Origin: Eubacterium sp.
GTDB taxonomy: Bacteria; Bacillota; Clostridia; Lachnospirales; Lachnospiraceae
Reading direction: 5' to 3'
NCBI GenBank assembly: GCA_021769425.1
Contig: JAETSX010000012.1
Span: forward strand, 1 to 64,000
Length of the DNA: 64,000 nucleotides
The notes below the pieces were generated by a model. It had not been told where the DNA came from, searched no databases, and worked only from the letters and a program-made list of their open reading frames with translations. Position numbers and translations under genes: made by a program. Positions within the stretch are counted from its first letter, which is position 1, and each line of letters starts with the position of its first letter. Below are positions 9,781 to 46,238 of this stretch, in pieces.

Positions 9781-10021
9781 TTCATAGAAAACCCTCATCA
9801 TGCTAAGCCTGTCGTGGGACGGGCCGCATGGCCATCCATGCTGTGAAAGTCGAAGACTTTCATAGAAAACCCTCATCATGCTAAGCCTGTCGTGCGACGG
9901 GCCGCATGGCCATCCTACTATGGAAGTCGAAGACTTTCATAGAAAACCCTCATCATGCTAAGCCTGTCGTGCGACGGGCCGCATGGCCATCCTACTATGG
10001 AAGTCGAAGGCTTTCATAGTA
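9781..10021 (+). repeat. Repeat A array, 3 units of 77-78 bp
   Basis: Units start at 9781, 9859 and 9936 and end at the TTCATAG of 10013. Each carries GTCGTG(C/G)GACGGGCCGCATGG and ends in a CTATGGAAGTC-GAA-GACTTTCATAG type hairpin (first unit CTGTG). The array is in the mecA 5' region, so it would be transcribed into the leader. Confidence 0.9.
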
Positions 10022-39329: not shown

Positions 39330-39494
39330 TTCATAGGAAACCCCCATCATGCTTAGCCTGTCGTGCGACGGGCCGCATGGCCATCCATACTATGGAAGTC
39401 AAAGACTTTCATAGTAAACTTCCATCATGCTCAGCCTGTCGTGCGACGGGCCGCATGGCCATCCATACTATGGAAGTCAAAGACTTTCATAGTA
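39330..39494 (+). repeat. Repeat A array, 2 units of 78 bp
   Basis: Units at 39330 and 39408, ending with TTCATAG at 39486. It lies between two terminators, a neutral position unlike the copies in genes. Confidence 0.9.
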
Positions 39495-42390: not shown

Positions 42391-42573
42391 GTTTTTAATC
42401 GGCAAATATTATAGAAAGAATGCTGACGGGATGGAGCGCCGGGAAAATTATTACAATTGCACAAGCGAAAATTTTTTTCAAAAGAGTGCAAGTATTTTCT
42501 CTGGTGAAACGTATTATAAGTAAAGAACCAAATGAAGCATTGACAAGTCATCAATTTAATTTAGGAGGCAGAT

Positions 42574-43353
42574 ATGAATAAGATGAAGAAAGCACTGATT
42601 GTAATATTCGCTTGCATTGTGGTATGCGGTATTTCCGCACCGGTAATTGCAGCGAATATGCAAAAAAGCAGTACCCGCGTAGAGCAAGAGGTAAGTACCA
42701 GAAAAGCAGGGCTGAGCAATGCGATTTTAAATACCAGCGCTGTTAGCCCCAAAGAAACAGCTGAGGAAACATCTGGCATTGCATCGGCAGAGGAATCAGT
42801 TCCCGAAACTGTGCCGGCAGCAGATGACAATACGGAGAATCTTGTGGATATCCAGGATACCGACTTAGTTAATGATGCAGCAGACGAACCGGAAGCGCCC
42901 GCAGAGGATCCGGCAGATGTTGCAGAGCCGGAAGCGCCCGCAGAGGATCCGGCAGATGTTGCAGAGCCGGAAGCGCCCGCAGAGGATCCGGCAGATGTTG
43001 CAGAGACAGAAGTTCCTGACACTGCAGCCCCGGCAGTCTGCCCATATTATGTAGATGCCAATGGAGACGGAGTTTGTGACCATTGTGCCCACGGCGGAGC
43101 ATGCGGCAATTACGTAGATGCCAATGGAGATGGAATTTGTGACTATTGTGCCCACGGCGGAGCATGCGGCAATTATGTGGATGCGGATGGAAATGGGGGC
43201 TGCGATTATTGTTCCCATAACGGAAGCGGCCATTGCGGAAGCTTTGTAGATTCTAATGGGGACGGAGTCTGTGACAATTATGCAGGCGGAAGCGGAAACG
43301 GCTATGGAGGCGGCCATCATGGAGGCGGCCATCATGGAGGTCACCACTGGTAA
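42574..43353 (+). CDS. Secreted Cys/His-rich protein with EF-type loops
   Basis: A 259-residue exported protein: signal peptide (~1-27), a Ser/Thr/Glu-rich stretch, three copies of a 13-residue unit (AEPEAPAEDPADV; ~105-143), four ~21-residue units starting at C156, C177, C198 and C221 (CGNYVDANGDGICDYCAH type), and a Gly/His tail (GGGHHGGGHHGGHHW). The DxNxDGxCD loops are like Ca2+-binding EF/dockerin loops; paired Cys and His suggest Zn, Cu or Ni binding as well. The ECF-type sigma gene starts 19 bases on. I know no function for it. Confidence 0.75.
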   Translation: MNKMKKALIVIFACIVVCGISAPVIAANMQKSSTRVEQEVSTRKAGLSNAILNTSAVSPKETAEETSGIASAEESVPETVPAADDNTENLVDIQDTDLVNDAADEPEAPAEDPADVAEPEAPAEDPADVAEPEAPAEDPADVAETEVPDTAAPAVCPYYVDANGDGVCDHCAHGGACGNYVDANGDGICDYCAHGGACGNYVDADGNGGCDYCSHNGSGHCGSFVDSNGDGVCDNYAGGSGNGYGGGHHGGGHHGGHHW

Positions 43354-43372
43354 AATACAAAGGGGATATTCT

Positions 43373-43855
43373 ATGCGCAGCGAGCAGGAGGTTGAACAGG
43401 CAATCGAATCATACTCCGATATGATTCGAAGGATTTGCCTTTTGCATCTGAATAATCATGAAGATACGGAGGATGTGCTTCAGGAGGTGTTTTTGAAGTA
43501 CGTCCTCCATTCTGCGGTTTTTGAAAGCAGGGAGCATGAGAAAGCGTGGTTAATCCGTGTCACGCTCAATGCCTGTAAAGATTTGAAAAGGAAATTATTC
43601 CGTCACAGTACAGTGCCCCTGGAGGTGCTTTCAGAGGAGGCGGCCAGTGTAATGCCGGAACAGATGGGGATCTTAGAGGTTGTGTTATCGCTGCCGGTGA
43701 AATATAAAGATGTGATTTATCTTCATTATTATGAAGGGTACACTGCAAAGGAAATCGGGACAATGCTGCATAAAAAGGAAAATACCGTATATTCTCTTAT
43801 GTCGAGGGGAAGAGAATTGCTGAAACAGAAGCTGGGAGGTGACAGGAATGTATGA
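43373..43855 (+). CDS. ECF-type RNA polymerase sigma factor
   Basis: A 160-residue sigma-70-family protein. Region 2 is at ~5-75 (HLNNHEDTEDVLQEVFLKYV) and region 4 at ~105-155 (LPVKYKDVIYLHYYEGYTAK, then a helix-turn-helix). AAGGGG precedes ATG 43373. It follows the secreted protein gene by 19 bases and overlaps the anti-sigma gene by eight, so sigma and anti-sigma are translationally coupled. It likely drives this unit, but no promoter motif could be assigned. Confidence 0.88.
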   Translation: MRSEQEVEQAIESYSDMIRRICLLHLNNHEDTEDVLQEVFLKYVLHSAVFESREHEKAWLIRVTLNACKDLKRKLFRHSTVPLEVLSEEAASVMPEQMGILEVVLSLPVKYKDVIYLHYYEGYTAKEIGTMLHKKENTVYSLMSRGRELLKQKLGGDRNV

Positions 43856-44618
43856 TGAGATTCGGGAAGCATTTGATCAGGTTCGTGCAACGGAACAGAT
43901 GAAACAGTCTGTGTCTGGTTATCTGGTTCAAAAGAGACGGAAAAATGCAGATAATTCCTTTAAACTCCGTATGCGCTCTCTGGTTCCTGTCTGTGCGCTG
44001 CTGTTGATATGTATTGGAATTGGAAATTGGTATTTCTGGGAAATGCCGGTGTCTTATGTCAGTGTGGATGTGAATCCTTCTATTGAACTGACGCTGAACC
44101 GGAGAAACCGCGTCACAGATGCAAAAAGCCGTAACCGGGACGGGGCAAAGGTCCTGGAGCATGTGCAGTTAAAAGGAAAGGACTATCTGGAAGCGGTGGA
44201 GCTTTTAGTAGAGAGTGAGGCAATGCAGCAGTATCTGACTACAGATGCGGAACTGACAGTTACAGTGGCTTCATTGAATGCGGAAGAACTTCTGTCCGGT
44301 CTTGAGAGCAGCGTAGTGTCCACCCACTATCATGGGATGTGCAGAAGCGCAGATATGGAAACTGTGGCCTCGGCCCATGATCATGACATGTCTCTGGGAA
44401 AGTATCAGATGTACCAGCTATTGTCTCAATATGGTTCCGGGCTGACGGCAGAAGACTGCCGGAATATTTCCATGTGCCGGCTTCGGGAACTTTTGTCTCA
44501 ATACGAAAACGGAAGGAAAGAGTCGGTAAGCAATGATGAATTAGAAAATATGCAGGTGGGCTGCCACCACGGCGGACAGCAGCATCACCATCATGATAGC
44601 GGGCATCACAGCGAATAG
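43848..44618 (+). CDS. RsgI-like transmembrane anti-sigma factor, His-rich tail
   Basis: A 256-residue single-pass protein: a cytoplasmic part of ~43 residues that could hold the sigma factor, a membrane segment (44-65), then an RsgI-type outer domain (YVSVDVNPSIELTLNRRNRV). The rest is helical with His pairs (STHYHGMC, ASAHDHDMS) and ends in GCHHGGQQHHHHDSGHHSE. The outer His clusters suggest metal sensing. The ATG is set by GGAGGTG six bases upstream; a GTG nine bases earlier is in frame. A strong terminator follows. Confidence 0.8.
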   Translation: MYDEIREAFDQVRATEQMKQSVSGYLVQKRRKNADNSFKLRMRSLVPVCALLLICIGIGNWYFWEMPVSYVSVDVNPSIELTLNRRNRVTDAKSRNRDGAKVLEHVQLKGKDYLEAVELLVESEAMQQYLTTDAELTVTVASLNAEELLSGLESSVVSTHYHGMCRSADMETVASAHDHDMSLGKYQMYQLLSQYGSGLTAEDCRNISMCRLRELLSQYENGRKESVSNDELENMQVGCHHGGQQHHHHDSGHHSE

Positions 44619-44629
44619 TGATGTCCGGT

Positions 44630-44773: not shown

Positions 44774-44826
44774 ATGTAAACATTTGTTTTGCATAGGTTG
44801 ACAATTCAAAAAATCCTGTGTATAGT
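44774..44826 (+). promoter_or_regulatory. bioB promoter with BirA-like operator
   Basis: TTGACA (44798-44803), a 17-bp spacer and TATAGT form a clear promoter. ATGTAAACA (44774-44782) and GGTTGACAA (44796-44804) resemble the two half-sites of BirA operators (TTGTAAACC / GGTTTACAA), and the right half covers the -35. The half-site spacing (13 bp) is shorter than the 14-16 bp I would expect, so this is tentative. Confidence 0.55.
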
Positions 44827-46034: not shown

Positions 46035-46238
46035 TTCATAGTAAACTCTCATCATGCTCAGCCTGCCGTGCGACGGGCCGCATGGCCATCCATGCTATGG
46101 AAGCCAGGGGCTTTCATAGTACCCCCATCATGCTCAGCCTGCCGTGCGACGGGCCGCATGGCCATCCATGCTATGGAAGCCAGGGGCTTTCATAGTACCC
46201 CCCATCATGCTCAGCCTGCCGTGCGACGGGCCGCATGG
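46035..46238 (+). repeat. Repeat A array, 2 full units and 1 truncated
   Basis: Units at 46035 and 46113 (78 and 76 bp) and a third at 46189 that stops at GGGCCGCATGG, where it runs straight into the amidohydrolase coding sequence. Confidence 0.9.

Follow-up and report, generated by a model that had tools for sequence, protein, structure and literature searches.

We describe a three-gene unit of a Eubacterium sp. that comprises a gene for a secreted protein (gene A), an ECF sigma factor gene and a gene for a membrane anti-sigma factor, all on the + strand, and that is conserved in related genomes. What is new here is an ECF-type promoter before the secreted gene and a second, unlinked gene with the same promoter; a literature search of partial coverage, based on titles and the openings of abstracts, returned no description of the unit. 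We judge the chances about even that the unit is an autoregulated loop, which would sense a ligand outside the cell (probably a transition metal) and secrete a protein that binds it.

Organization of the three-gene unit

The unit lies at positions 42574-44618 of the window, i.e. the whole 64,000-nt stretch that was analysed, which belongs to contig C158 of a 4.9-Mb draft genome. The three ORFs were found where the initial annotation had placed them, with the 19-nt gap between gene A and the sigma factor gene and the 8-nt overlap between the sigma and anti-sigma genes (Table 1). By reading, GGGAGG is present just 5' of the ATG of the anti-sigma gene (43848), while the GTG at 43839 is a longer, mechanical start. 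A terminator-like hairpin was found at the end of the operon; it is weak evidence by itself because the scan of the window gave 6 such sites versus 2.3 expected. A promoter-like site, for which this type of scan is also weak evidence, was found at 44798, 3' of the unit.

Table 1. Features of the unit and their positions in the window
Feature	Positions	Strand	Basis or remark
ECF-type promoter, TGCAAGTATTT-N12-CGTATTATAAG	42487..42520	+	53 nt to gene A; conserved upstream in congeners and family
Gene A, secreted 259-aa protein	42574..43353	+	Acidic P/A/E linker, repeat units and tail with His; signal peptide recognized by inspection
Four Cys/Ca-loop-like repeats in gene A	43039..43281	+	Sequence reading; alignment of relatives
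His/Gly C-terminal tail of gene A	43306..43350	+	Sequence reading; alignment of relatives
ECF sigma factor, 160 aa	43373..43855	+	Pfam/NCBIfam; MRSE-like start in relatives
Membrane anti-sigma factor	43848..44618	+	256 aa from ATG 43848; 259 aa from GTG 43839
Likely transmembrane helix of anti-sigma factor	43980..44036	+	Hydrophobic stretch by reading; within model helix, residues 19-68
RsgI_M/SEAL-type outer domain	44049..44417	+	Pfam, solved RsgI chains, Foldseek
N79-P80, expected self-cleavage site	44073..44078	+	Invariance and alignment with PDB chains
His-rich tail of anti-sigma factor, one Cys	44562..44615	+	Sequence reading; 19-sequence alignment
Terminator-like hairpin with T run, operon end	44600..44627	+	Hairpin scan

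The gene A product gave no Pfam family at E ≤ 1 and three NCBIfam matches, all far below cut-off. It had been said to carry four CxNYVDANGDGxCDxC units; four units are indeed present, but CDxC closes just units one to three, the fourth having CDNY at its end, and the loop of the third is altered (DADGNG). The C, D, G, N and H columns of the repeats were invariant in 9/9 aligned relatives. The His tails that had been noted on both exported products were both found (GGHHGGGHHGGHHW; CHHGGQQHHHHDSGHHSE). By reading, the linker contains three near-identical 39-nt tandem repeats that encode EAPAEDPADVAEP (window 42892-43008), and its length varies among relatives.

The sigma factor and its membrane partner

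The description of the sigma factor as ECF-type was borne out by its Pfam matches (Sigma70_r2, 4.7e-11; r4_2, 2.1e-13). It consists of sigma2 and sigma4 domains only, and its 160 residues fall within the range of ECF factors (about 160-200). NCBIfam TIGR02937 scored 73.9 bits (cut-off 42.9), which alone is not decisive for an ECF factor because this model also scores some SigI proteins; no SigI model was present among the best 25 of 88 NCBIfam matches.

The anti-sigma factor had been called RsgI-like, which holds, by sequence and fold, for its outer central domain and not for the rest of the protein. Pfam RsgI_M matched at 3.4e-26 (92.8 bits, cut-off 25.3); no other Pfam family was found at E ≤ 1, and the N-terminal sigma-binding domain of RsgI is absent. 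An ordinary SigI-RsgI pair was considered and rejected on these grounds: since both SigI and the RsgI N-terminus are missing, the unit is not a member of that class. The outer domain matched six solved RsgI chains by sequence, with E values from 1.3e-17 (best, 8u9o) to 6.9e-14, and a Foldseek search with a model of the anti-sigma factor retrieved 10 PDB chains at E ≤ 0.001, all RsgI, the best values being those of 8t9n_A (7.0e-8, TMt 0.77) and 8hdj_B (2.0e-7). In this model, ten-residue blocks from residue 51 to 240 had an average pLDDT of 77-95, and confidence was below 50 at residues 243-259, which belong to the tail. The tail extends about 18 residues past the folded part in the window.

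Residues D77, N79, P80 and S81 were invariant in 19/19 anti-sigma factors. For five of the six PDB chains listed, the alignment opens with chain residue 1 at profile position 81; in that of 8u9o_B, the one inspected, this residue is the P of N-P. The anti-sigma factor is predicted to be self-cleaved at the N-P site. The genome encodes one M50 protease.

Conservation in the genus and the family

The genes are kept together in relatives, as their adjacency across the genus and the family indicates. The named relatives of the anti-sigma factor are Lachnospiraceae, including Petralouisia muris and Eubacterium sp. 14-2. A search of 61 genomes with the anti-sigma factor gave matches in 30 at E ≤ 0.001, and 21 of the 29 genomes of the genus had a strong match (E 4.5e-44 or better). 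A secreted Cys/His repeat gene lies directly upstream of the sigma gene in 16 of these 21 loci (L002-L016, L020), and a secreted protein with C-x2-H-x3-H repeats (CxxHxxxH protein) is encoded beyond the anti-sigma gene in four (L018, L019, L021, L022). The last locus, L017, begins at a contig edge and is not assessable, so that a Cys/His-type secreted gene adjoins the pair in 20/20 assessable genus loci. Among these partners the repeats shift from YVDANGDGxCDxC to CPYVDENHT or CGHTDGNHPYDCPNWDGN units, and the HH-rich tail is kept. A His-containing secreted protein is also encoded upstream in L023 and L024, which come from other families of the order.

We then used a profile of 19 anti-sigma factors to search 347 genomes of the family, of which 91 matched at E ≤ 1e-15. 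The best 64 of these 91 were considered; 60 loci were newly taken, 2 were already in the set and 2 were left out (a fragment, G380, and G393). Thirty-six of the 60 (L137-L169, L171, L174, L175) scored at least 163 bits and had a sigma factor of the window's kind; one, L171, is truncated at the end of its contig. Counted by eye, 32 of the 35 assessable loci have a Cys/His-type secreted gene next to the pair, upstream in 29 and beyond the anti-sigma gene in L143, L161 and L165. No partner was seen by eye beside L141, L142 and L168; L141 and L142 keep His tails (5 and 7 His in 60 residues). The unit is thus real and conserved, and its presence in tens of genomes excludes chance. L168 and L174 have a short sigma frame and an anti-sigma tail without His, and look decayed.

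Outside the 36 were SigI-like loci, other ECF kinds, and three loci with an ECF-length sigma factor and a weaker score (L177, L179, L184), in which no partner was seen. The ECF/RsgI_M pair of L177 (G155:C50:479800-486700) has no His tail and immediately follows genes for an ABC-3 family permease and a FUR-family regulator. In a strict automatic test on the 60 loci, a His-containing secreted neighbour was found in 20/32 His-tailed loci (4 or more His among the 60 C-terminal residues of the anti-sigma factor) versus 4/28 others (Fisher p 1.8e-4, the loci being related to each other), an association that arises partly by construction because the test requires His in the partner. Since it demands His, this test also misses some of the partners seen by eye (those missed are L140, L146, L149-L151, L153, L155, L158, L164, L172-L174 and L180).

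Promoter of the unit

The aligned regions 5' of gene A show TGCAAGnATTT-N12-CGTATTATAAG, a pattern that occurs once in the window and was found 0 times in 100 shuffles. In the family, an ECF-type promoter, TGMAWGGATT-N12-CGTATTAT, with a -35 element reading TGAAWGGA or TGCAAGGA, precedes the secreted gene in 29/32 loci; these 29 beat all 500 shuffles when corrected ORF starts were used, which L145 (p 0.014), L156 and L160 did not. L156 has a match further upstream in another scan, and the partnerless L168 retains a site before the sigma gene (L222). None of five SigI-type loci with a divergent His/Cys-rich gene had the ECF promoter (0/5; best p 0.014), as expected if another sigma factor serves them. 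ECF factors recognize a -10 motif [CG]GT[ATC], as given in PMC10575876, and the -10 CGTA of the promoter fits it. The operon is preceded by a conserved -35 element and a CGTA-like -10 element, as expected for ECF factors. The sigma factor of the unit is predicted to read TGMAWGGATT-N12-CGTATTAT.

Scanning of the 29 genus genomes with up to 3 mismatches gave 34 matches, versus 2 for the backwards control. All 23 matches with 0-2 mismatches precede the operon or a CxxHxxxH gene: 17 are operon promoters, 1 stands before an adjacent CxxHxxxH gene (G004) and 5 before unlinked CxxHxxxH genes. They were present in 18/22 genomes with the locus and in 0/7 without it. Three of the 11 matches with 3 mismatches precede a CxxHxxxH gene, including G000:C177 in the window's own genome; the other 8 look like chance.

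With a looser pattern, 10 genomes yielded 41 matches, made up of 10 operon promoters, 9 CxxHxxxH genes and 22 others, a number close to that of the backwards control (24); 21 of the 22 were read, G016:C42 being left out. A set of 24 genomes gave 43 matches; operons or genes adjacent to them account for 17 and unlinked secreted genes for 2. The remaining 24 exceed the control (13), and the promoter may have targets beyond those read; all 24 were read, and none precedes a His/Cys-rich secreted gene or an evident metal gene. The extra sites lie mostly inside open frames of more than 150 codons (18/24 in one set read). No metal transporter gene was found behind any of the promoter-like matches read.

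The unlinked CxxHxxxH gene

Using a shorter core, we found the promoter before an unlinked gene for a secreted CxxHxxxH protein in the window's genome and in 8/9 congeners, G016 being the only one of the 10 genomes without a site at this gene. A script located the start of 11 of 13 CxxHxxxH genes. The products of these 11 have a signal peptide by inspection, a His-rich start and 2-13 repeats, and the distance from promoter to ATG was 63-77 nt in 10 of them and 115 nt in one. All 11 sequences (L075, L074, L071, L073, L067, L090, L218, L057, L064, L208, L210) show MA-H-x-H after the signal peptide, and the mature protein starts with H-x-H in 11/11 if cut after A30, a cleavage site set by eye. 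This start resembles an amino-terminal Cu/Ni site and may form one. No confident AlphaFold fold was obtained for the CxxHxxxH protein (pLDDT 38). A Vanabin-2 match in Pfam (E 0.048, under cut-off) was taken as compositional.

A CxxHxxxH profile found the protein in 6 of the 347 family genomes (G000, G104, G229, G232, G385, G387), all of which have the sigma locus, and in none of the locus-free genomes among the 347. Four of the six had been fed into the profile, having been found through the promoter or the locus neighbourhood; G229 and G387 are independent of it. In G385 the CxxHxxxH gene is unlinked and has the promoter, while in G104 the promoter stands before an unlinked gene of the Ca-loop type (L225), and the gene next to the locus is of the CxxHxxxH type (L208). 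Two unlike secreted repeat proteins thus share one promoter set and swap places.

Co-variation of the tails

Of 83 loci examined, a script classed 60 as ECF-type and assigned an upstream partner to 42 of these. The number of His in the last 40 residues of the partner correlated with that of the anti-sigma factor (rho 0.66, n = 42 loci), also with phylogenetic contrasts (r 0.38, sign-flip p 0.0003; 40 contrasts over 41 loci, the near-duplicate L008 being dropped). With contrasts, partner His was negatively related to anti-sigma Arg (r -0.51, p 0.0035), and partner Arg to anti-sigma His gave r -0.30 (p 0.07). The Arg-Arg relation was not significant with contrasts (r 0.21, p 0.26; raw rho 0.45), and no co-variation was seen for Cys in the two tails (raw rho -0.20, not significant; contrasts -0.04). 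For His in the whole partner versus tail His, the raw rho of 0.23-0.26 was not significant, while contrasts gave 0.40 (p 0.028). In six loci (L149, L151, L153, L155, L158, L160), both tails are poor in His or free of it and carry Arg/Gly in its place. In L151, L153 and L155 the architecture is kept with Arg/Gly/Asn-rich tails that are almost devoid of His, which a pure His-metal model does not explain; loci almost without tail His that keep the architecture indicate that His-metal binding is not universal.

Proposed mechanism and alternatives

We propose that the ECF sigma factor would be held at the membrane by the anti-sigma factor, with its self-cleaved SEAL domain and short ligand-binding tail. 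An extracellular ligand, bound by His/Cys, would engage this tail and make the SEAL halves separate, whereupon a site-2 protease would cut the membrane stub and free the sigma factor. The latter would transcribe its own operon, gene A first, as well as the unlinked CxxHxxxH gene from TGMAWGGATT-N12-CGTATTAT promoters, and the secreted proteins would bind and buffer the same ligand, thereby switching off the sensor. The protease step and the sign of the response are putative. The proposal builds on the observed gene order, SEAL fold and cleavage motif, single promoter type, co-occurrence and tail co-variation. The His/Cys chemistry makes a transition metal, for example Zn, Ni or Cu, the probable ligand, and the secreted Cys/His proteins are predicted to be metal binders. 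A tail of only about 18 residues would suit an ion or a small diffusing partner better than a polymer outside the wall, and a role of the gene A product as ligand buffer or co-sensor would fit the shared promoter and the co-varying tails.

A more far-reaching form of this proposal appears possible, though doubtful: a self-contained extracellular metal-homeostasis loop, in which the SEAL anti-sigma factor and the secreted repeats share one evolving ligand chemistry and the sensing tail equals the exported sequestering tail, an 'external metallothionein' in gut Lachnospiraceae, with a like coupling made a second time with SigI. Against the autoregulated loop proposed above stand the loss of His from both tails in some loci in favour of Arg/Gly, the tail Cys that do not co-vary, the His contrast of just 0.38, the absence of a metal transporter gene behind the promoter-like matches read, the His tails of the partnerless L141 and L142, the lack of a partner in L168, L177, L179 and L184, and the CxxHxxxH protein without a confident fold. 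The replacement of His by Arg/Gly/Asn where both tails lose it (raw rho 0.45 for Arg-Arg; contrasts r -0.51 for partner His versus anti-sigma Arg) would rather speak for an envelope circuit, which we consider unlikely: polycationic tails (His or Arg/Gly) would attach to an anionic surface such as a wall polymer or mucin, the secreted products would be Ca-stabilised surface proteins, as the resemblance of their DxNxDG loops to Ca sites might suggest, and the anti-sigma factor would sense the surface, e.g. through acidification that charges His. However, the Arg-Arg co-variation loses significance with contrasts, partners without His retain their Cys loops, and the paired Cys and His of the CxxHxxxH repeats are left without a role.

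It is similarly improbable that the secreted protein is itself the ligand, its tail touching the like-built tail of the anti-sigma factor directly or through a metal bridge in a flux-like secretion feedback. The co-variation of like tails within a locus agrees with this, as does the shortness of the anti-sigma tail, to which a diffusing partner must come; yet the CxxHxxxH partners (L137, L143, L161, L165) have most of their His in the repeats and at the N-terminus of the mature protein, while the anti-sigma tails of these loci remain His-rich (5 to 8 His in 60). A calcium circuit, with the DxNxDG loops as Ca stores or sensors and with incidental His tails, accounts for the Ca-loop spacing of the gene A repeats; we give it little credit, as the CxxHxxxH product has Cys/His repeats and no such loop, and the partners of L015 and L020 carry CGHTDGNHPYDCPNWDGN units without it. 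His-rich secreted proteins occur in many clostridial genomes, so that low-complexity His proteins could be chance neighbours behind a general promoter, but the adjacency, the promoter with its controls, the co-occurrence and the SigI-type set (0/5) make this hardly credible.

Comparison with known systems

In C. thermocellum RsgI6, self-cleavage of the outer domain is followed by a cut by RseP, after which ClpXP degrades what is left (PMC12203970). The unit shares with SigI-RsgI of Bacillus and Clostridium thermocellum the fold of the outer domain and the N-P site, with presumed self-cleavage, RseP and cytosolic protease steps, and by analogy its anti-sigma factor probably works in a like manner at the membrane. 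It differs by its two-domain ECF sigma factor of 160 residues, by the lack of the RsgI N-terminal domain in Pfam at E ≤ 1, by a short His tail as candidate sensor in place of a carbohydrate-binding part, and by an output of secreted Cys/His proteins. The pairing of an ECF sigma factor with a SEAL anti-sigma factor is not unique to the unit, since L181, L182, L186 and L190 also have an ECF sigma factor beside an RsgI_M-type anti-sigma factor; there, the sigma factor is of another ECF kind (175-193 aa), the anti-sigma factor lacks a His tail (no more than 2 His among the 60 C-terminal residues) and no Cys/His secreted neighbour was found in the strict test. In L172, L173, L176, L178 and L180 a SigI-like sigma factor shows a like coupling: the SEAL anti-sigma factor has His in its tail, and a secreted gene rich in His/Cys lies divergently; the best NCBIfam matches of these sigma factors are SigI, below the equivalog cut-offs.

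The nearest functional likeness that we saw, by analogy, is CnrYXH of Cupriavidus metallidurans, an ECF sigma factor with a membrane anti-sigma factor and a metal-binding extracytoplasmic protein, CnrX, the sensor thought to switch CnrY (PMC4598750). Unlike in CnrYXH, the anti-sigma factor of the unit is SEAL-type, the extracytoplasmic protein is under the operon promoter and is the apparent output, and neither a CnrX-type anchored metal sensor nor an RND efflux gene was found within the three genes. In sigmaV-RsiV, according to the same paper (PMC4598750), the outer part of the anti-sigma factor likewise binds an extracellular ligand, lysozyme, and is then proteolysed. Unlike the unit, that system has a protein ligand and another output. 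It is not known to contain a SEAL domain. Metallothioneins and His- or Cys-rich metal-buffering proteins are small, repeat-built and rich in Cys/His, like the CxxHxxxH protein, which differs in having no Pfam family over cut-off and, with its profile, no PDB sequence relative at E ≤ 1.

An RsgI/SEAL-type sensor with an ECF sigma factor thus gains a compact predicted regulon in gut bacteria, which as far as read consists only of secreted Cys/His proteins. Promoter, sensor tail and ligand are directly testable, and the unit offers a case of a sensor and its product co-evolving. Should a metal prove to be the ligand, the unit would illustrate how commensals of the gut cope with fluctuating levels of extracellular metal or compete for it.

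Short tandem arrays with a spacing of 76-78 nt were also seen dispersed in the window, at 1479-1585, 9810-9994, 39359-39466 and 46064-46169. They comprise 9 copies, each on the + strand, with at most 3 mismatches from TGCCGTGCGACGGGCCGCATGGCCATCCAT, of which 100 shuffles gave none; read in one frame, the arrays mimic small ORFs (SCSACRATGRMAIH).
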